Below are positions 1 through 10,076 of a stretch of DNA of 39,879 bases, piece by piece (positions within the stretch are counted from its first letter, which is position 1; each line of letters opens with the position of its first letter). Source of the DNA: Rubrivivax sp. Its GTDB lineage: Bacteria; Pseudomonadota; Gammaproteobacteria; Burkholderiales; Burkholderiaceae_C. Both the position numbers and the translations under genes were made by a program. The DNA is taken from NCBI GenBank assembly GCA_018780805.1, contig JADMJD010000151.1, positions 1 through 39,879 of the forward strand. Reading direction: 5' to 3'. The notes under the pieces were generated by a model. That model had not been told where the DNA came from. It worked only from the letters and a program-made list of their open reading frames with translations, and searched no databases.

Positions 1-830
1 CCACCGGCCGCCTGGGCCTGCTGGAGCTGCGCGCCTTCGAGATGCCGCCGCATGCACGCATGAGCCTGGCGCAGCAGCTGCTGCTGCGCGCGCTGCTGGC
101 CTGGTTCTGGCGCGAGCCCTACACCGGCCGTGGCACCACGCTGCTCACGCGCTGGGGCACGGGGCTGCACGACCGTTTCATGCTGCCGACGTTTGTCGAG
201 CAGGACTTTGCCGACGTGCTGGCCGAGCTGCGTGGCGAGGGTTATGCGTTTGACGACGCCTGGTTTGCGCCGCACTTCGAGTTCCGCTTCCCGCTCATCG
301 GCGAGCTGGCCACGGCGGGTGTGCACTTGACGCTGCGCACCGCGCTCGAACCCTGGCATGTGATGGGCGAAGAGACCAGCTCCACCGGCACGGCGCGGTA
401 CGTGGATTCGTCGCTGGAGCGGCTGGAGGTCAAGGTCACGGGCCTGAACGGCAACCGGCACGTGGTGGCTGTCAACGGCCAGGCGCTGCCGCTGCAGCCC
501 ACCGGCCGCATCGGAGAATTTGTCTGCGGCGTGCGTTACCGCGCGTGGCAGCCGCCGTCGGCGTTGCATCCGACGATCCCGTCGCACGCGCCGCTCACCA
601 TCGACGTGGTCGACAACTGGCTGGAGCGCAGCCTGGGCGGCTGCCGCTACCACGTGGCGCACCCAGGTGGCCGCAGCTACGAGACCTTCCCGATCAACGC
701 CTACGAAGCTGAAAGCCGGCGGCTCGCGCGGTTCTTCCGCTACGGCCACACCCCGGGGCGCATGAAGGTCGCGCCAGCGCAGGCCAGCCTGGAATTCCCG
801 TTCACGCTGGACCTGCGCAAGGCATCGTAG
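1..830 (+). CDS. DUF2126 / transglutaminase-like protein, C-terminal part (5' end outside window)
   Basis: The frame is open from the first bases of the window (codons begin at position 3) and ends at TAG 828-830, so only about 275 C-terminal residues are seen. The segment contains motifs I associate with the DUF2126 region of large (about 1100 aa) transglutaminase-like proteins, such as [15 protein letters not shown] and [12 protein letters not shown], followed by FFRYGHTPG close to the end. The N-terminal transglutaminase core with its Cys-His-Asp triad would lie upstream and cannot be checked. The stop is 4 bp from the GTG start of the next gene, so the two are almost surely cotranscribed. 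Proteins of this type sit beside permuted ATP-grasp and alpha-E genes in a predicted peptide-synthesis cluster; their biochemical role is unknown. An internal Met at 42 is not the true start. Confidence 0.85.
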
Positions 831-834
831 GCCT

Positions 835-3390
835 GTGAACCAGTCGCAGTCCCAGACCTCGCTGCCCTTCGACCCCGCCGGGGCCGGCAGTGCGGCGCTG
901 GACGCGCTGCTGCGCCACGCCGCGCCGCCCGAGCCCGGGGTCTGGGACGAGTTGCGTGGTGCCGATGGCCAGGCGCGTGCCACCTGGCAGCGCTTTGCAT
1001 CGCTGGTGGGCGACGACGCACACGGCCTGGACCGGCGTGTGCACCAGGTCGAACACCAGCTGCGCCAGGACGGTGTCACGCACAACGTCTTCAGCGACAA
1101 CGGCGTGGCGGTGCGGCCCTGGTCGCTGGAGCTGCTGCCCACGTTGATCGAGCCGGCCGACTGGGCCACCATCGAAGCCGGCGTGCTGCAGCGCGCCGAG
1201 CTGGCCGAGGCGATGTTGGGCGACCTCTATGGCCCGCGCCGGCTGCTGCACGAGGGCCTGATGCCCCCGGCGCTGCTGCTGCGTCACCCGGGTTACCTGC
1301 GGCCGCTGCACGGTGTGGTGCCGGCCGGCGGCCAGCGCCTGCACATCGTGGCCTTCGACATCGCCCGTGGCCCCGAGGGCGGCTGGTGGGTCGTGGCGCA
1401 GCGCACCCAGGGCCCGTCGGGCCTGGGCTACGTGATGCACAACCGGCTCACGATCTCGCGCCAGTTCCCCGATGCCTTCCGCGAGCTGCGGGTGCAGCAC
1501 ATCGCGTCCAGCTACCGGCGCCTGATCGACGCGCTGGACCAGCGGGCACGCGATGTGGCGGGTGGCCACGCGCCCCGCATCGTGCTGCTCACGCCCGGCC
1601 TGTACAGCGAGACCTATTTCGAGCAGGCCTACCTGGCGCGTTACCTGGGCCTGCCGCTGGTGGAAGGCGGCGACCTGACGGTGCGTGCCGACCGCCTGTT
1701 CCTGAAGACCGTCGAAGGCCTGGAGCCGGTGCACGGTGTGCTGCGCCGGGTGGACGACGACTGGTGCGACCCGCTGGAGCTGCGGCCCGATTCCGCGCTG
1801 GGTGTGCCCGGCCTGCTGCGCGCCGCCCGCGCCGGCCACGTGGTGCTGGCCAACGCGCTGGGCAGCGGTTTCCTGGAAACACCGGCGCTGCAGGGTTTTT
1901 TGCCCGGCATCGCGCAGCGCCTGCTGGACCAGGAGTTGTTGATGCCGGCCCTGCCCACCTGGTGGTGCGGCGAGGCCGCGTCCTGGGCCAATGTGCGGCA
2001 CGACATGGCCGACAAGCTGCTGCGCAGCGCCTTCCCGCGGGGCGGCCGCACCTCGCAGGTGCACGACGCCCTGAAAGCGGACGTGGACGCCGACCCCGAC
2101 GCCTGGACGGTGCAGGGCCGGCTGGCCTTCTCGCGCACCCCCATCTGGCAACGTGGCCGCACCGCGCCGCGGCCGGCCCTGGTGCGGGTCTACGCCATCG
2201 CCGATGCCTTTGGCCGCTGGCATGTGCTGCCCGGTGGCATGACCCGGGTGGCCCAGCGCGCCGACGCCAGTGTGTCGATGCAGCGCGGCGGCTCCAGCCT
2301 GGACACCTGGGTCATGACCACCGGCCGGGTCGACGTGTTTTCGATGCTGCCGGCGCGGCTGCAGGTGGACGACATCGCCAACCGCCGCCGCCCGGTCACC
2401 AGCCGCACCGGCGAGAACCTGTTCTGGCTGGGCCGCTACACCGAGCGCACCGAACAGCTGGTGCGCCTGGCGCGGGTGACGCTGAACCTGATCGACGCCG
2501 ACAACGACGCCGACGAACCGGTGCTCGCCGCGTTGTCGGCGCTGGCCGTGCGCAAGGGCCTGGCGCCGGATGGCGTGCCCACGCTGGTGCAGTCCCCGCC
2601 GGTGTTTGAACGTGCCGTGCTGGCCGCGCTGGGCGACACCGAAGGCGGCAAAGGCGCCTGCAGCGTGGCCTACAACCTGCAGGCCCTGGCGCGCGCGTCG
2701 CAGGCGCTGCGCGAGCGGCTGTCGTCCGAGCAATGGGGGCTGATGCGCCAGATGGGCGAAAACTTCACCCAGGCGCTGGCGCCGCGCCTGCCCGGTGAGC
2801 TGCCGACGCTGCCGCAGGTGCTGCCGGCGCTCGACCGGCTGGCCGTGCAGCTGGCCGCCGTGACCGGCGCGCAGACCGACCGCATGACCCGCGACCACGG
2901 CTGGCGGCTGCTGACCGTGGGCCGTTTGATCGACCGGTTGATCGGCGTGACCGCACGTTTTGAGCAGTTCCTGGTCGGCCGTGCACTCGGCAGCGTGGCC
3001 GGCATCGACCTGCTGCTGGAGCTCTTCGACAGCGCCATCACCTTCCGTGCGCGTTACCAGCGCCACGAAGACCTGCTCGCGCTGACCGACCTGCTGGTGC
3101 TGGACAACACCAACCCGCGCGCCTACGCCGGTGTGCTGCGCCGGCTGCGCACCGAGCTGCGCAAGCTGCCCGGTGGCGACGACGCCATCGCCCCGCTGCT
3201 GGCGCTGTTGCCGGCCGAAGGTGCCGGGCTGTCGCTGGAAGACCTGCGTGGCGCCAGCGAAGCGCAGATCGCCGACAAGCTGCTGGCCTTGTCGCTGCAA
3301 CTGGGCCAGGCCGGTGTGCAACTGGCCGATGCCATCGGCGAGCGTTATTTCACGCTGGCCACCGACGAACACCGCATCCAGCAAGTCTGA
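835..3390 (+). CDS. Circularly permuted ATP-grasp (DUF404/DUF407) fused to alpha-E domain (DUF403)
   Basis: This is an 851-residue, two-domain protein starting at GTG 835. Residues about 70-500 form a circularly permuted ATP-grasp ligase-like domain (VLLTPGLYSETYFEQAYLAR, RRVDDDW, PGGMTRVA). Residues about 520-845 form an alpha-helical alpha-E domain that opens with SRTGENLFWLGRYTERTEQL. The family is predicted to make amide bonds in a peptide or peptide-like product; no substrate is known. Compared with the stand-alone paralogue at 4381, residues expected to bind ATP and metal are changed. The EDN before the PSG motif is AQR here (residues 188-190), and the lysine of the VVKEVHG loop is Arg397 followed by a different loop. 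It may therefore be a non-catalytic or altered partner. It lies between the DUF2126 gene (4-bp gap) and the transglutaminase gene (4-bp gap). Confidence 0.88.
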   Translation: MNQSQSQTSLPFDPAGAGSAALDALLRHAAPPEPGVWDELRGADGQARATWQRFASLVGDDAHGLDRRVHQVEHQLRQDGVTHNVFSDNGVAVRPWSLELLPTLIEPADWATIEAGVLQRAELAEAMLGDLYGPRRLLHEGLMPPALLLRHPGYLRPLHGVVPAGGQRLHIVAFDIARGPEGGWWVVAQRTQGPSGLGYVMHNRLTISRQFPDAFRELRVQHIASSYRRLIDALDQRARDVAGGHAPRIVLLTPGLYSETYFEQAYLARYLGLPLVEGGDLTVRADRLFLKTVEGLEPVHGVLRRVDDDWCDPLELRPDSALGVPGLLRAARAGHVVLANALGSGFLETPALQGFLPGIAQRLLDQELLMPALPTWWCGEAASWANVRHDMADKLLRSAFPRGGRTSQVHDALKADVDADPDAWTVQGRLAFSRTPIWQRGRTAPRPALVRVYAIADAFGRWHVLPGGMTRVAQRADASVSMQRGGSSLDTWVMTTGRVDVFSMLPARLQVDDIANRRRPVTSRTGENLFWLGRYTERTEQLVRLARVTLNLIDADNDADEPVLAALSALAVRKGLAPDGVPTLVQSPPVFERAVLAALGDTEGGKGACSVAYNLQALARASQALRERLSSEQWGLMRQMGENFTQALAPRLPGELPTLPQVLPALDRLAVQLAAVTGAQTDRMTRDHGWRLLTVGRLIDRLIGVTARFEQFLVGRALGSVAGIDLLLELFDSAITFRARYQRHEDLLALTDLLVLDNTNPRAYAGVLRRLRTELRKLPGGDDAIAPLLALLPAEGAGLSLEDLRGASEAQIADKLLALSLQLGQAGVQLADAIGERYFTLATDEHRIQQV

Positions 3391-3394
3391 CGGC

Positions 3395-4384
3395 ATGACG
3401 ACGCTGCTCGAAGTCACGCACACCACGCGCTACCGCTATGCGGTGCCGGTGTCGCCCGCTTTGCACCTGGCGCATCTGCAGCCGCTGGCCGATGCGCACC
3501 AGGCGCTGCTGGATTTCGATCTCGGCGTGGACCCTGCGCCCGACGAGCTCAGCACCGAAACCGATGTCTGGGGCAATGTGCGCAGCCTGTTTGCGGTGGT
3601 GGCGGCGCACCGCGAGTTGGTGGTGCGCGCCACCAGCCGTGTCGCGCTGCAACCGCGCTTTGCCGGTCTGCAGCCGGCCGAAGGCCCCGCCTGGGAGGCC
3701 GTGGCGCGGCGCCTGCAATACGTGGCGCGCAGCCCCTGGGAGCCGGCGGTGGAGTTTGTGCAGCCGTCGCCCTTTGTGCCGCGGCTGGAGGTCTTGCGCA
3801 GTTATGCCCGCAGCAGCTTTCCCAAAGGCAGGCCGGTGGCCGAAGCGGCGCTGGACCTGATGCACCGCATCCACGCCGACTTCCGCTACGACGGCACGGC
3901 CACGCAGATCGACACGCCGCTGGCCCAGGCTTTTGCGCAGCGCAGCGGTGTGTGCCAGGACTTCGCCCATGTGCTGGCCGGCTGCCTGCGCATGCTGGGC
4001 CTGCCGGCACGTTATGTCAGCGGTTACCTGCTCACCACACCAGCCGGCGGCGAGCCGGCCTTCGTCGGCGCCGATGCCTCTCACGCCTGGGTGCAGGCCT
4101 GGGTGCCGGGCACACCCGGTGTGCCCGCCGACGGCTGGCTGGACCTGGACCCGACCAACGACCTGGTGCCACACACCGGCCATGTGCGCGTGGCCGTGGG
4201 CCGCGACTTTGGCGACGTGACACCACTGCGCGGCGTCATCCGTGGCGGTGGTCGCCACACGCTGACGGTGGGTGTGCACACCCGCACGCTGGACAAAAAC
4301 ACCGGGGTGGGCCCGGGAATTGCTCAAGGCATCGACAAAAGCGGCGCCGACAAAGACCCCCAGGGGCAGGAGATGCTTCGATGA
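3395..4384 (+). CDS. Transglutaminase-like cysteine peptidase/ligase (COG1305) with N-terminal transglutaminase-associated domain
   Basis: The protein has 329 residues. I chose ATG 3395, 4 bp after the preceding stop, because it starts directly with the typical N-terminal beta-domain (TTLLEVTHTTRYRYAVPV, residues 2-19). The papain-like core carries the full catalytic set: Cys187 in SGVCQDFAH, His230 in DASHAWVQAW and the Asp of the DLDPTND motif near residue 250. No signal peptide or membrane segment is seen, so it is likely cytoplasmic. Its last codons overlap the start of the next ATP-grasp gene in an ATGA (4381-4384), which indicates translational coupling. Members of this family in this neighbourhood are predicted to hydrolyse or transfer the peptide made by the ATP-grasp ligase; that role is inferred from context only. 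Confidence 0.9.
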   Translation: MTTLLEVTHTTRYRYAVPVSPALHLAHLQPLADAHQALLDFDLGVDPAPDELSTETDVWGNVRSLFAVVAAHRELVVRATSRVALQPRFAGLQPAEGPAWEAVARRLQYVARSPWEPAVEFVQPSPFVPRLEVLRSYARSSFPKGRPVAEAALDLMHRIHADFRYDGTATQIDTPLAQAFAQRSGVCQDFAHVLAGCLRMLGLPARYVSGYLLTTPAGGEPAFVGADASHAWVQAWVPGTPGVPADGWLDLDPTNDLVPHTGHVRVAVGRDFGDVTPLRGVIRGGGRHTLTVGVHTRTLDKNTGVGPGIAQGIDKSGADKDPQGQEMLR

Positions 4385-5817
4385 AGCCATTCGACGAGAT
4401 GCATGCCGCCGACGGTGCGGTGCGTGAACATTACGAAACCTATGCGCGCTGGCTCGCCAAACAACCGGCCGAGGTGATGCGCGCCCAGCGCGAGGAGGCG
4501 GAGCTGATCTTTCGCCGCGTCGGCATCACCTTCGCGGTCTACGGCGCCAAGGACGAAGACGGTGCCGGCACCGAACGCCTGATCCCGTTTGACCTCATCC
4601 CGCGGGTGATTCCTGGCCCCGAGTGGCGCGACATGCAGGCCGGCCTGCGCCAGCGCGTGACGGCACTCAACCGCTTCATCCACGACGTCTACCACGACCA
4701 GGAGATCCTGAAGGCCGGCATCGTGCCCGCCGAGCAGGTGCTGAAAAACGCGCAGTACCGGCCCGAGATGGTGGGCGTGAAGGTGCCGGGCGACGTGTAC
4801 TCGCACATCTCCGGCATCGACATCGTGCGTGCCGCCGACGCCGCCGGCACCGGCCACTACTACGTGCTGGAAGACAACCTGCGCGTGCCCAGCGGCGTGA
4901 GCTACATGCTGGAAAACCGCAAGATGACGATGCGGCTGTTCCCCGAGCTGTTCAGCCTGCACCGCATCGCGCCGGTGGCGCACTACCCCGACCTGCTGCT
5001 GGAAACCCTGCGCGCCGTGGCACCGGCCGGTGTCAACGAACCCAACGTCGTGGTGCTCACACCCGGCATGTACAACAGCGCCTACTTCGAACACGCCTTC
5101 CTGGCGCAGCAGATGGGCGTGGAGCTGGTCGAAGGCCAGGACCTGTTCGTCAAGGACAACTTCGTCTACATGCGCACCACGCAGGGCCCCAAACGTGTGG
5201 ACGTGGTCTACCGCCGCGTCGACGACGACTTCCTGGATCCCAAGGCCTTCCGCCCCGACAGCACGCTGGGCTGTGCCGGCCTGCTGGACGTCTACCGCCA
5301 GGGCAACATCACGCTGTCCAACGCCATCGGCACCGGCATCGCGGACGACAAGAGCATCTACCCGTATGTGCCGAAGATGATCGAGTTCTACCTCGGCGAA
5401 AAACCCATCCTGAACAACGTGCCGACCTACCTGTGCCGCGAGGCCGACGACCTGAAATACGTGCTGGACCACATGGCCGAGCTGGTGGTGAAGGAGGTGC
5501 ATGGCGCGGGTGGTTACGGCATGCTGGTGGGCCCGGCGGCCACCAAGGCCGAGATCGCCGAGTTTGCGGCCGTGGTCAAGGCCAACCCCACCAACTACAT
5601 CGCGCAGCCCACGCTGGCGCTGTCCACCTGCCCGACCTATGTGGAAAGCGGCATCGCGCCGCGCCACATCGATTTGCGGCCGTATGTGCTGAGCTCGGGC
5701 CAGGGGGTGCAGACGGTGCCCGGCGGCCTCACGCGGGTGGCGTTGAAAGAAGGTTCTCTGGTGGTCAACTCGTCGCAGGGCGGGGGCACCAAGGACACCT
5801 GGGTTCTTGAAGACTGA
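4381..5817 (+). CDS. Circularly permuted ATP-grasp peptide-ligase-like protein (DUF404/DUF407)
   Basis: The protein has 478 residues. ATG 4381 overlaps the upstream stop. The whole protein is one circularly permuted ATP-grasp unit. Visible motifs are EDNLRVPSG (residues 164-172, probable metal/ATP site), VVVLTPGMYNSAYFEHAFLA, YRRVDDDFLDP, the lysine loop VVKEVHGAGGYGM (Lys371), the HIDLRPYVL strand and the C-terminal PGGLTRVALKEGSLVVNSSQ. All appear intact, unlike the fused paralogue at 835. The family is expected to ligate a carboxylate to an amine using ATP. It is followed 15 bp later by the stand-alone alpha-E gene, so the fused gene and this pair look like products of one duplication. The actual substrate is unknown. 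Confidence 0.9.
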   Translation: MKPFDEMHAADGAVREHYETYARWLAKQPAEVMRAQREEAELIFRRVGITFAVYGAKDEDGAGTERLIPFDLIPRVIPGPEWRDMQAGLRQRVTALNRFIHDVYHDQEILKAGIVPAEQVLKNAQYRPEMVGVKVPGDVYSHISGIDIVRAADAAGTGHYYVLEDNLRVPSGVSYMLENRKMTMRLFPELFSLHRIAPVAHYPDLLLETLRAVAPAGVNEPNVVVLTPGMYNSAYFEHAFLAQQMGVELVEGQDLFVKDNFVYMRTTQGPKRVDVVYRRVDDDFLDPKAFRPDSTLGCAGLLDVYRQGNITLSNAIGTGIADDKSIYPYVPKMIEFYLGEKPILNNVPTYLCREADDLKYVLDHMAELVVKEVHGAGGYGMLVGPAATKAEIAEFAAVVKANPTNYIAQPTLALSTCPTYVESGIAPRHIDLRPYVLSSGQGVQTVPGGLTRVALKEGSLVVNSSQGGGTKDTWVLED

Positions 5818-5832
5818 ACGGGAGGACGGACC

Positions 5833-6813
5833 ATGCTTTCAAGAACTGCCGACCACCTTTTCTGGATGGCGCGTTACATGGAGCGCGCGGAAAACACCGC
5901 GCGCATGCTGAACGTCAGCTACGAAACCTCGCTGCTGCCGCAGTCGGCCGACATGGCCGAAGCCGGCTGGCGCGGGCTGCTGTCGATCAGCGAACTGACG
6001 CCGTTTTTCCACAAGAAACACGCCGAGGTCAACGCGCGCAACGTCATGGACTTCATGGTCCGCGACGAGACCAACTTCTCCAGCATCTGGTGCTGCCTGC
6101 GGGCCGCGCGCGAAAACGCCCGCGCGGTGCGCGGCAGCCTGACCACCGAGGTCTGGGAGACGCAGAACCAGACCTGGCTGGAGTTCAACCGCCTGCTCAA
6201 ACAAGGCGCCTTCGAGCAGGACCCCGCCGAGTTTTTCGAGTGGGTCAAGTTCCGCTCACACCTGAGCCGCGGCGTGACGGTGGGCACGATGCTGATGGAC
6301 GAGGCGCTGCACTTCCTGCGCATCGGCACCTTCCTGGAGCGGGCCGACAACACCGCGCGGCTGATCGACGTGAAGTTCCACGCGCTCACGGCCGGCAAGG
6401 ACTTCTTCGGCCCGGCCGGTGTGGCCGGCCCCGGCGCGCAGCCGCAGGAGGTGGACTTCTACCACTGGAGCGCCGTGCTGCGCTCGGTCTCGGGTTTCGA
6501 GATCTACCGCAAGGTCTACCGCAACGTGATCCGGCCTGAAAAGGTGGCCGAGCTGCTGGTGCTGCGCCCGGACATGCCGCGTTCGCTGGCCGCCTGCATG
6601 AACGAGGTGCAGGCCAACCTGCGCCTGGTGGCCAACCAGCAGAGCGCCGAAACCATCCGCCGCTCCGGGCGCCTGTGTTCCGACCTGCAGTACGCCCGCA
6701 TCGACGAGATCCTGGCCACCGGCCTGCACGCCTACCTGACGCAGTTCCTGGACCGCGTGAACGACCTGGGCGCCGGCATCGGGCGCGACTTCCTGGTGCC
6801 TGTGGCGGCGTGA
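5833..6813 (+). CDS. Alpha-E domain protein (DUF403)
   Basis: The protein has 326 residues. ATG 5833 is preceded by a GGAGG ribosome-binding site at 5821-5825. It is an all-helical protein starting with the diagnostic N-terminus LSRTADHLFWMARYMERAEN and repeating the related helix RIGTFLERADNTARLIDVKF near residue 160. It corresponds to the C-terminal half of the fusion protein at 835. Alpha-E proteins accompany permuted ATP-grasp ligases almost everywhere and are thought to act as partner or scaffold; no enzymatic activity has been shown to my knowledge. It is the last gene of the cluster; a GC-rich hairpin lies 3 bp after its stop. Confidence 0.9.
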   Translation: MLSRTADHLFWMARYMERAENTARMLNVSYETSLLPQSADMAEAGWRGLLSISELTPFFHKKHAEVNARNVMDFMVRDETNFSSIWCCLRAARENARAVRGSLTTEVWETQNQTWLEFNRLLKQGAFEQDPAEFFEWVKFRSHLSRGVTVGTMLMDEALHFLRIGTFLERADNTARLIDVKFHALTAGKDFFGPAGVAGPGAQPQEVDFYHWSAVLRSVSGFEIYRKVYRNVIRPEKVAELLVLRPDMPRSLAACMNEVQANLRLVANQQSAETIRRSGRLCSDLQYARIDEILATGLHAYLTQFLDRVNDLGAGIGRDFLVPVAA

Positions 6814-6847: not shown

Positions 6848-7855
6848 CTACAGACTGCGCTTGACCGCCTCACCCAGCGCCAGCACCGCCAGCGCGTAGT
6901 AGCTGCTGCGGTTGTAGCGCGTCAGCGCGTAGAAGTTGGCCGTGCCGGCGGTGTAGCTGGGCGGCAGGTGGCCGTTTTCCACCATCACCAGCGCCAGCAG
7001 GCCGGTGTGTGCGCGGCCGGCGTCGCTCAGTGCGGCACCAGCGGCTTCCAGCGCGGTGGCGTCGAAGCTGGGCACGATGTCGGGTGCCAGCAGGCGCGAC
7101 AGCGCGGCGGCGTCGGCGGGTGGTGTCACCGGGTGCGTGGCCGGCAGGCCGCGCTGCCAGCCGTGCACGGCCAGGAACTGCGCGATGCTGCCGATGGCAT
7201 CGGCCGTGCTGCTGCGCAGGTCCACGTGGCCGTCGCCGTCGAAGTCCAGCGCGTGGCGGTTGATGCTGCCGGGCATGAACTGGCCCAGGCCGATGGCGCC
7301 GGCAAACGAGCCCGTCAGCGATGCCGGGGCGATCTTCTCGCGCTGCGCCAGCACCAGCAGCTCTTCCAGCTCCTCGCGGAAGTAGGTGCTGCGGTCGCTG
7401 CGGCCCGAGGGAAAGTCGAAGGCCAGCGTGGCCAGCACGTCCAGAGCCCGGAAGTTACCCATCACGCGGCCGTAGAAGGTCTCGACACCGACGATGCCCA
7501 CCACCACCTCGGGCGCGACGCCAAACCGTTCCTCGGCGCGTGCCAGCGCCGCGGCGTTCGCCTTCCAGAATTCGGCGCCGGCCAGGATGCGGCGCGGCTC
7601 GACAAAACGGTCGCGGTAAGCGGCCCAATTCTTGGGCTGGCCCACCGGCGGCGGCATGATGAGTTTCTGCGCCGCGGGCCGGGGCTTGGCTTCGCGCAGC
7701 TGCTGCAGCACCCACGCGGGGTCCAGCTTGCGGCGCTCGGCGACATCGGCCGCAAAGGCACGGGCTTCGGGGCGGGTGTCGTAGCCGGTGGCGGCGGCCA
7801 GCGCGGTGGCCGGCAGCAGGCCGGCCAGGACAACGAGGGCGATGCGCAACTGCAT
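6848..7855 (-). CDS. mltB: Lytic murein transglycosylase, MltB family
   Basis: The protein has 335 residues. The N-terminus (MQLRIALVVLAGLLPATALA) is a Sec signal peptide with an AxA-type cleavage site and no lipobox cysteine. The product should therefore be soluble in the periplasm, unlike the lipoprotein MltB of E. coli. The catalytic glutamate is Glu125 in GIVGVETFYGR. The SLT fold is completed by GAIGLGQFMPGSI and by the EF-hand-like loop DFDGDGHVDL, both typical of MltB. It cleaves the MurNAc-GlcNAc bond of peptidoglycan, leaving 1,6-anhydro-MurNAc. Its start is 15 bp from the stop of the neighbouring dioxygenase gene, but there is no functional link between them. Confidence 0.93.
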   Translation of the reverse strand: MQLRIALVVLAGLLPATALAAATGYDTRPEARAFAADVAERRKLDPAWVLQQLREAKPRPAAQKLIMPPPVGQPKNWAAYRDRFVEPRRILAGAEFWKANAAALARAEERFGVAPEVVVGIVGVETFYGRVMGNFRALDVLATLAFDFPSGRSDRSTYFREELEELLVLAQREKIAPASLTGSFAGAIGLGQFMPGSINRHALDFDGDGHVDLRSSTADAIGSIAQFLAVHGWQRGLPATHPVTPPADAAALSRLLAPDIVPSFDATALEAAGAALSDAGRAHTGLLALVMVENGHLPPSYTAGTANFYALTRYNRSSYYALAVLALGEAVKRSL

Positions 7856-7870
7856 CGCGCCATCATAGGT

Positions 7871-8710
7871 TCAGCCCGCAGGCGCCATCACCAGCAGCCC
7901 GGCGGCGGTGTTGGAGATGGGGATGTGGTAACTCTGGTGCACGCGCGTGGCACCGTCGCCCAGTGCGGCCCGTGCGGCCAGCCACATCAGCAGCTCCACA
8001 CCTTGCGTGCCGGCCTGCTCCACCAGCTGGTGCGTGTCGAACTGCGTGGCCCAGCGCGGGTTGTGCACCAGGCTTTCCAGGAACGCGAGGTCGAAGTCGC
8101 GGTGGATGAAACCGGCGCGTTCACCGTCCAGCTGATGCGACAGCCCGCCGCTGCCGACCACCAGCACGCGCGCGTCGCTGTCCCAGGCGCGCACGGCGCG
8201 GCCCACGGCATCGCCCAGTGCCCAGCAGCGGCGTGCGCTGGGCAGCGGGAACTGCACGGTGTTGATGCAGATGGGCACGATGCGCACCGGCCAGGCGGGG
8301 CCCGGGAACATCAGCTGCATCGGGTTGGTGATGGCGTGGTCGACCCGCATCTCCTGGCAGGTGGTGAGGTCGAAGTCTTCGCCCACCAGCGCGTTGACCA
8401 GATGCCAGGACAGGTCCACCTCGCCGCGAAAGGCCGGCACCTGGGGCAGGCCCCAGCCTTCGTCGGCGTTGCTGTATTCGGGCGTCGCGCCGATGGCGAA
8501 GGTCGGCATCTTGTCGAGGAAGAAGTTCAGCCCGTGGTCGTTGTAGAAGACCACCAGCACGTCGGGCCGGGCCTGTGCCAACCAGCGCTGGGCGGGGCCC
8601 CAGCCGTCGAAGAAGGGTTTCCAGTAGGGTTCTTGCTGCAGCTGCTGGGCGATGGCGCGGCCGATGGCCGGCACGTGCGAGCTGCAGAGGCTGCCGATGA
8701 TCTGTGCCAT
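7871..8710 (-). CDS. ligB: Class III extradiol dioxygenase catalytic (beta) subunit, protocatechuate 4,5-dioxygenase type
   Basis: The protein has 279 residues. I chose the ATG at 8710 because translation then begins MAQIIGSLCSSHVP, the standard LigB N-terminus with the iron-binding His12. The second ligand is His59 in YNDHGLNFF, the acid/base histidine is in GSGGLSHQL, and the glutamate ligand is probably in GVELLMW. The family opens the ring of protocatechuate or related catechols (gallate, other 3,4-dihydroxy acids) between C4 and C5 using Fe(II) and O2. The alpha subunit gene precedes it by 13 bp. None of the usual downstream genes (semialdehyde dehydrogenase, lactonase, hydratase) is nearby, so the exact substrate is uncertain. 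Confidence 0.9.
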   Translation of the reverse strand: MAQIIGSLCSSHVPAIGRAIAQQLQQEPYWKPFFDGWGPAQRWLAQARPDVLVVFYNDHGLNFFLDKMPTFAIGATPEYSNADEGWGLPQVPAFRGEVDLSWHLVNALVGEDFDLTTCQEMRVDHAITNPMQLMFPGPAWPVRIVPICINTVQFPLPSARRCWALGDAVGRAVRAWDSDARVLVVGSGGLSHQLDGERAGFIHRDFDLAFLESLVHNPRWATQFDTHQLVEQAGTQGVELLMWLAARAALGDGATRVHQSYHIPISNTAAGLLVMAPAG

Positions 8711-8723
8711 GGTGTGCCTCCGC

Positions 8724-9062
8724 TCAGCCCGCGTGCGCCGCCAGTCGGGCCTGGAACTCGGCCTTCGAGAGGCCGGTCTGCTGGGCGCCGATGTCCTGCA
8801 CGTCCAGCCCGAAGGTGCCGGCCAGCTTGGCCAGGTAGTAGATGTTGCCGCCGGCGGCCAGCAGGGCCAGCACGTTGCGCGAGGCCACCGCGGCCCGCTG
8901 CGCCTCATCCAGGTCGTACTGCTGGCAGTAGGCGGCTTCATCGGCCAGGAACGCCGCGCGGTTGGCCGCGTCGTTGAAGGAAAAACACAGGCGGTTCAGC
9001 GCGTAACCTTTGCGGGCCTGCGCGCCGTCGAACAACGTGGTGCCGGGGATGGTCGGGCGCAT
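8724..9062 (-). CDS. ligA: Protocatechuate 4,5-dioxygenase alpha (small) subunit
   Basis: The protein has 112 residues and is the small subunit that caps the active site of the LigB-type partner. Recognisable features are RLCFSFNDAANRAAFLADE near residue 24, the YDLDEAQRAAV segment, and GGNIYYLAKLAGTFGLDVQD, the most conserved LigA motif. The gene is first of a two-gene operon with ligB and is transcribed away from the LysR gene at 9159. A palindromic candidate operator lies in the 96 bp between them. It lacks the N-terminal extension found in some longer LigA/PmdA proteins, which is a normal variant. Confidence 0.88.
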   Translation of the reverse strand: MRPTIPGTTLFDGAQARKGYALNRLCFSFNDAANRAAFLADEAAYCQQYDLDEAQRAAVASRNVLALLAAGGNIYYLAKLAGTFGLDVQDIGAQQTGLSKAEFQARLAAHAG

Positions 9063-9158: not shown

Positions 9159-10076
9159 ATGAATGCAGCCAACCCCCTGGACCTGGACGGCCACGCGCTG
9201 GGCCTGCTGCTGGCGGTGGCCGAGACCGGCTCGGTCACGCGTGCCGCCGAGCGCCTGGGCCTGACGCAGAGCGCCGTCAGCCACGCGCTGGACAAGCTGC
9301 GTGCGATCACCGGTGACGCGCTGTTCGTGCGCTGCGGGCGCGGCATCGTCGCCACGCCGCAGGTGGCGTTGCTGGTGCCGCAGGCGCGGGCGCTGCTGGC
9401 GGGCCTGCAGGCCTTTGGCGCCGGTGCGGCCTTCGACCCGGCGCGCTGGGAAGGGGTGTGCACCATCGCCGCCAACGACCTGCAGCGTGACCTGCTGCTG
9501 CCCGGCCTGCTGCGCCGCCTGCGCGCACAAGCGCCCGGGCTGCGGCTGCGCGTGATCCCCTCCGGTGCACCGCGTGCCGCGCTGCTGCGCGACGGTGGCT
9601 GTGACCTGCTGCTGACGCCACGCCCACCCGAGGGCAGCGACATCCTGCAGCGCCGGCTGTTCGAGGACGGTTACGCCGTGTTCTTCGACCCGCAGCAGCG
9701 GGCCGCGCCGGCCGATGCCGCCGACTGGGCCGCGGCGGACCACGTCAGCGTGGCCTACGACGATGGCCGCGGCCTGGACATCGACGAACACCTGGCCGGG
9801 CAAGGCCACAAGCGCCGCATCGTCGCCACCGTGCCGGGTTTTGCCGGCATCGCCGCGCTGCTGCGTGGCGGGCCCTGGCTGGCCACGCTGCCCTCGCGTC
9901 TGGCCGAAGGCGTGTTGCACGGCCTGGCCACCGCGCCGGTGCCGGTGCCCACGCCGGTGTTGCCGATGTACGCCGTGTGGCACCGGCGCCAGCACGACGA
10001 TCCGGCGCAGCGCTGGTTGCGCGGTGAGTTGCTGCAGGGTCTGTCACCGCCGCAGTCTGGTACGCAGTTCCAGTGA
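9159..10076 (+). CDS. LysR-family transcriptional regulator
   Basis: The protein has 305 residues. The N-terminal winged helix-turn-helix occupies residues 8-65 (LLLAVAETGSVTRAAERLGL, TQSAVSHALDKLR, GDALFVRCGRGIVATPQV). It is followed by the linker helix and a periplasmic-binding-protein-like effector domain up to about residue 300. It is divergent from the ligAB dioxygenase operon, so its effector is probably the aromatic substrate or a ring-cleavage product. A palindrome sits directly upstream of its start, which suggests autoregulation. The stop codon lies inside the left arm of another inverted repeat (10071-10092). Confidence 0.88.
   Translation: MNAANPLDLDGHALGLLLAVAETGSVTRAAERLGLTQSAVSHALDKLRAITGDALFVRCGRGIVATPQVALLVPQARALLAGLQAFGAGAAFDPARWEGVCTIAANDLQRDLLLPGLLRRLRAQAPGLRLRVIPSGAPRAALLRDGGCDLLLTPRPPEGSDILQRRLFEDGYAVFFDPQQRAAPADAADWAAADHVSVAYDDGRGLDIDEHLAGQGHKRRIVATVPGFAGIAALLRGGPWLATLPSRLAEGVLHGLATAPVPVPTPVLPMYAVWHRRQHDDPAQRWLRGELLQGLSPPQSGTQFQ

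Follow-up and report, generated by a model that had tools for sequence, protein, structure and literature searches.

A permuted ATP-grasp, alpha-E and transglutaminase cluster of Rubrivivax sp. with a predicted pseudo-ligase and a separately encoded Anbu

Gene layout and domain composition of the cluster

The window, a stretch of 39,879 nucleotides, is contig C232 from base 1 of a Rubrivivax sp. genome (5.18 Mb, 246 contigs, 92% complete). Positions 3-6813 hold five genes that all run on the forward strand with gaps of 4, 4, -4 and 15 bp, in agreement with the initial annotation. The first gene (3..830) encodes 275 residues matching profile positions 559-826 of 826 of Pfam DUF2126. The second (835..3390) encodes G1E, in which a CP_ATPgrasp_2 domain, termed G1 (about 1138-2253) and read below as a pseudo-ATP-grasp, is fused to an Alpha-E domain (about 2398-3351). 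The third (3395..4384) encodes the transglutaminase TG, which consists of Bact_transglu_N and Transglut_core and carries C187, H230 and D252. The fourth (4381..5817) encodes G2, a CP_ATPgrasp_2 protein with intact motifs and a close relative of PDB 3n6x, and the fifth (5833..6813) encodes the Alpha-E protein E2 with an E17-R18 motif. All five proteins have strong Pfam matches and no NCBIfam match at E 0.01. Hydropathy analysis revealed no signal peptide or membrane span in any of them, with a maximal 19-residue value of 1.51, compared to 2.16 for an MltB control.

The cluster had been called complete-looking; however, the contig begins within DUF2126, so the first gene is cut at the contig end. 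The window holds the last 275 residues of its product, and comparison with relatives indicates that the rest, including a transglutaminase domain, would lie off the contig; a Pfam search found no further DUF2126 piece elsewhere in the genome. The relatives encode DUF2126 and an intact transglutaminase domain in a single protein, TG-DUF2126 (tblastn, 62 loci; Pfam on locus L145), with a median length of about 1172 codons (62 loci, naive starts). A stand-alone DUF2126 without the transglutaminase domain is found in locus L096 (5372-7597), with a similar distant DUF2126 match in L097. Downstream of the cluster, and convergent to it, the window encodes an MltB-like lytic transglycosylase (6848-7855, SLT_2), and mltB also lies 3' of the cluster in some relatives. 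It is followed by LigB and LigA (7874-9062), an aromatic ring-opening dioxygenase pair adjoined by a divergent LysR regulator at 9159.

The permuted ATP-grasp, alpha-E and transglutaminase genes are adjacent and co-directional, and the cluster thus belongs to the known kind that was predicted in 2009 by Iyer et al., as cited in the available parts of PMC6376114 and PMC5666114. The description of the locus as a predicted peptide- or tag-building cluster with an undefined product is upheld. By contrast, the system can hardly be called undescribed, given the 2009 prediction and a related ATP-grasp from an Anbu operon that frees phosphate from ATP, according to PMC6376114.

Two ATP-grasp proteins and two transglutaminases

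In ATP-grasp enzymes the E-x-N motif is metal-binding. Alignment of the two ATP-grasp proteins with their relatives, after length filters on the G1, G2, E2 and TG rows, revealed that this motif (E164 and N166) is present in 81/81 G2 and 0/146 G1 proteins. The stretch E164-D165-N166 of G2 (4870..4878) belongs to the E-D-N-L-R segment to which A-Q-R-T-Q of G1 (1396..1410) is aligned; position 166 of G1 is Arg in 141/146 and position 168 is Gln in 134/146. The glycine-rich loop H374-G380 of G2 (5500..5520) follows the same pattern: glycines 377, 378 and 380 occur together in 81/81 G2 and 2/146 G1, and glycines 375, 377 and 378 in 68/80 and 0/145, respectively, while H374 and G375 are kept in 69/81 G2. 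Moreover, D165, K371, N463 and K471 are kept in 81/81 G2, compared to 56/146, 91/146, 0/146 and 50/146 in G1. The last 300 residues are distinct in 144 of the 146 G1 rows and 78 of the 81 G2 rows, and the family and named locus sets overlap (L120, L126 and L140 with G032, G087 and G070).

G1 is nevertheless conserved. Residues E237, D286, R433 and W474 are invariant (146/146), indicating that the fold and other sites are kept, and the alpha-E part of G1E has its ER motif in 58/58 family proteins. As the catalytic motifs are lost while fold residues and the ER motif are kept, we read G1 as a conserved pseudo-ligase; judged by these motifs, only G2 of the two is predicted to work as an ATP-grasp. 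The annotation of two ATP-grasps therefore holds for the fold and fails for catalysis, since the catalytic motifs are missing from the alpha-E fusion. Likewise, the proposal that ATP-grasps binding no nucleotide would speak against the system is divided by the motifs: G1 is without the metal motif and G2, with it, is a candidate nucleotide binder. A literature search found no paper on an inactive ATP-grasp, though Iyer et al. 2009 may report one.

The Cys-His-Asp set noted in the transglutaminase is confirmed, with C187 in 118/120, H230 in 120/120 and D252 in 118/120 aligned transglutaminases, and the triad of TG-DUF2126 is invariant (35/35). The model of the alpha-E protein is all-helical and good (pLDDT 88.8), with no match to the PDB at E 0.001 or better. 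The model of the DUF2126 protein is poor (pLDDT 69), and Foldseek search placed the transglutaminase 3isr first (E 2e-8). Glutamine synthetases make up 30 of the 50 matches listed, with a best E of 0.24 and no aligned range given, and 1tt4 is also listed. These low-confidence matches suggest, short of proof, that DUF2126 is weakly glutamine-synthetase-like, assuming that they fall in the DUF2126 part of the model. No mention of DUF2126 was found among the matches listed in the literature search.

Distribution, Anbu and sigma-54 motifs

DUF2126 is found in 80/120 genomes searched of the family, this one included, and in 84/299 Pseudomonadota genomes searched. All 84 of the latter carry a permuted ATP-grasp, 79 of them in at least two copies; of the 215 phylum genomes without DUF2126, 77 carry it, 67 in a single copy (4 of the 161 carriers fall below the Pfam cut-off). 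In a genome of the same genus (G094), no match to any of DUF2126, alpha-E and Anbu was found. A long G1E match is present in 58/62 fetched loci, normally followed by the transglutaminase, and G1E adjoins DUF2126 in 18/20 further phylum loci; of the two exceptions, L195 shows G2 and E2. Among the named loci, the best 80 of at least 593, the core extends from Burkholderiales to Pseudomonas, Marinobacter and metagenome-assembled genomes (MAGs) labelled Acidobacteria and Verrucomicrobiota. As the core order recurs across Pseudomonadota, the layout is more than chance. The position of G2 and E2 varies among the 62 loci: upstream, divergent beyond comEC, downstream as in the window, or outside the fetched 20 kb.

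Apart from the core genes, the open reading frames clustered in at least 6 of the 62 loci are only comEC, synteny genes and an antisense artefact over alpha-E. The initial annotation had proposed a check for a nearby small ORF or carrier; no conserved one was found in the 62 loci (at least 40 aa, BLAST E 1e-6 to 1e-8, at least 6 loci), a search that could miss short, overlapping or fast-changing peptides. The same clustering gave no conserved structural gene. The comEC gene, assigned by reading the sequence, occurs in 39/62 loci and was set aside as positional because a sigma-54 motif precedes it in only 1/26. Peptidase_Mx was considered as an alternative peptidase (alpha-E is present in 44/44 family genomes that carry it; Fisher p 0.001, without correction for relatedness) and rejected, with no match in the Rubrivivax genome. 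This putative zinc peptidase lies beside the cluster in L169 (6474-7532) and nine other named loci of distant lineages. In L164 and other Pseudomonas loci, an uncharacterised pair, c18 and c19, lies upstream of TG-DUF2126; c19 is hydrophobic, perhaps a membrane protein.

The cluster has protein families in common with the Anbu operon of Pseudomonas and Yersinia, which consists of ATP-grasp, alpha-E, transglutaminase and Anbu. Compared to that operon, the window adds TG-DUF2126 and G1E, and its genome encodes Anbu on a separate contig (G000:C151:54104-54832), found by a search with the Anbu of locus L049, to which it is 59% identical. Thus Anbu is present in the genome and absent from the cluster as seen in the window; no second match was found in the genome, the genes before the window contig start being unseen. 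In L049, the proteins beside the Anbu gene are 78% and 71% identical to G2 and E2 of the window. The same locus (1593-4852) has Anbu, E2 and G2 adjoining TG-DUF2126, so that both systems stand in one locus. The profile PF00227 missed this genome's Anbu and was therefore dropped as a probe. It also gave no match to HslV in this 92% complete genome, compared to matches in 111/120 family genomes.

Anbu is present in 98/120 family genomes, and its presence follows that of alpha-E: 97/105 genomes with alpha-E have it, compared to 1/15 without (Fisher p 7e-12, relatedness not corrected). The genomes are related, and such p-values are therefore too small. Within 5 kb of alpha-E, Anbu was counted by eye, among the matches listed, in 3/73 genomes with DUF2126 versus 10/24 without. 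Anbu loci were fetched from 60 of the 98 genomes with a match. The ORF upstream (at least 120 aa) reads as MutS-like in 43/57 of the fetched loci; the one in the Rubrivivax genome is not MutS-like. A sigma-54 motif precedes the unlinked Anbu in 1/60 (shuffle mean 0.30), so Anbu is not obviously co-regulated with the cluster.

The sigma-54 motif searched was TGG[CT]N7TTGC[AT], with genes having short upstream stretches left out; the shuffles behind the expectations, here and for unlinked Anbu, keep dinucleotides only approximately. In the fetched loci the motif lies before DUF2126 in 29/62 (shuffle mean 0.32) and before G2 in 21/45 (0.48), compared to 3/422 for other genes (3.26), 1/57 for G1E and 1/59 for the transglutaminase. 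The named beta-proteobacterial loci, among which L160 and L166 are counted, have it at DUF2126 in 26/52, at G2 in 15/29 and at other genes in 12/494; in named loci of unclear lineage (MAGs) the counts are 2/4 and 2/3 for DUF2126 and G2. In clearly non-beta named loci, however, they are 0/21, 0/4 and 17/282, which counts against the interpretation preferred below. In six of eight relatives with the window's gene order the motif directly precedes DUF2126; the window itself, where the operon start lies off the contig, shows none. NtrC-like boxes (score at least 9 of 12) gave no clear signal and were discarded (DUF2126 12/62, G2 19/45, other genes 108/422).

In Burkholderia cenocepacia H111, I35_5080-5083 encode DUF404/407, DUF403, transglutaminase and large transglutaminase proteins, the last presumably TG-DUF2126. 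Their order equals that of G2, E2, TG and TG-DUF2126 in the Burkholderia locus L112, whose E2 is 35% identical to that of the window; in the window, by comparison, G2 and E2 are the 3'-terminal genes of the cluster. According to the available part of PMC5491218, loss of ntrC lowers I35_5080-83 by 6.0 to 9.4 fold, and this cluster of matching order requires NtrC and sigma-54. Induction by nitrogen limitation is also reported for the Pseudomonas putida Anbu operon (PMC7801951, PMC3325844, each as far as available): in the accessible data of PMC7801951, PP_2686-88 rise 12.6, 11.0 and 14.7 fold in the wild type and still 14.2, 16.0 and 19.6 fold in an rpoN mutant. This persistence argues that sigma-54 is not strictly required in P. 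putida; on these partial sources, the induction by nitrogen limitation itself stands. The P. putida Anbu gene PP_2685 changes 1.1 fold in the wild type under nitrogen limitation (PMC7801951), and one column of PMC3325844 gives 11.1; PMC8050072, as available, gives log2 4.4 on nitrate, yet its PP_2685 promoter reporter is nitrogen-agnostic. Taken together, nitrogen limitation is probably the inducer of the cluster, by extension also in this organism.

A candidate system for amide ligation and turnover

We tentatively favor, as a real possibility, a cytoplasmic system induced by nitrogen limitation that would form and break amide linkages on peptides or proteins; of its two ATP-grasps one would be live and the other a pseudo-ligase subunit, and Anbu would act in trans. 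In a presumed order of steps, G2 would activate a carboxylate with ATP and couple it to an amine, and the glutamine-synthetase-like part of DUF2126 would serve as a second ligase. The transglutaminase domains, which are papain-like, may cut or transfer amides. G1E, not a ligase itself, appears to keep substrate-side residues and the alpha-E ER motif, and as a scaffold it probably positions the substrate or G2 and E2. Anbu, encoded elsewhere, would hydrolyse the product or tagged protein.

Related biochemistry comes from the Yersinia bercovieri ATP-grasp, a G2 relative from an Anbu operon. As far as PMC6376114 is available, it releases phosphate from ATP, by ligation or plain hydrolysis according to its authors, with no stimulation by Glu, Gln or Anbu; neither a complex nor Anbu peptidase activity was seen. 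A role of Anbu in peptide synthesis was judged less likely in PMC5666114.

A rival explanation, which we consider rather unlikely, is a small-molecule cycle like that of the glutathionylspermidine synthetase/amidase Gss, a ligase paired with a thiol hydrolase: G2 would couple an amine, for instance a polyamine, to an amino acid or peptide, and the product would be hydrolysed by the transglutaminases, in nitrogen scavenging or storage, with Anbu incidental. The solved G2 relative 3n6x entered the PDB as a putative glutathionylspermidine synthase, and E. coli Gss, annotated as a fused amidase/synthetase, has a D318...E330-x-N332 pattern like the E-x-N of G2; however, profile comparison of G2 with Gss gave no significant similarity (hhalign E 0.32, 23 columns). 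Urease and putrescine transport genes are down in the B. cenocepacia ntrC mutant, with one spermidine/putrescine transport gene up (PMC5491218, in part), and the abundance of marine DUF403/404/407 tracks urea-metabolism domains in the accessible part of PMC3597751. The co-occurrence of Anbu with alpha-E would, however, be left unexplained by such a cycle.

A further reading, which we regard as improbable, would be Pup-independent tagging and turnover in nitrogen starvation, in which the glutamine-synthetase-like and ATP-grasp ligases would add an amino-acid tail to proteins, G1E would act as a subunit for recognition, transglutaminase-fold enzymes would trim the tail and the unlinked Anbu would consume the tagged proteins. 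The Pup ligase PafA and the proteasome likewise pair a glutamine-synthetase-like ligase with a proteasome relative. Compared to that system, no conserved small tag ORF was found (at least 40 aa, 62 loci), and the window has an ATP-grasp and a transglutaminase in addition.

It is quite improbable that G1 is a different active enzyme, whose conserved R-x-Q and ETYFE residues would form a new site. The conserved Arg and Gln at the two changed positions make the changes look selected, which speaks for this explanation; against it, the metal positions are without E or N in 146/146 and the three loop glycines are together in just the two G1 proteins mentioned above. Protein cross-linking or storage, with the transglutaminases as main enzymes and the ligases preparing their substrates, is very unlikely: there are two transglutaminase domains per cluster, three in some relatives, with well-kept triads, but neither a membrane span or signal peptide in the five proteins nor a conserved structural gene nearby.

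Overall, the cluster is widespread, and with G2 as the sole keeper of the ATP-grasp motifs, Anbu as the likely partner encoded elsewhere and nitrogen limitation as the likely inducer, it becomes open to direct tests.
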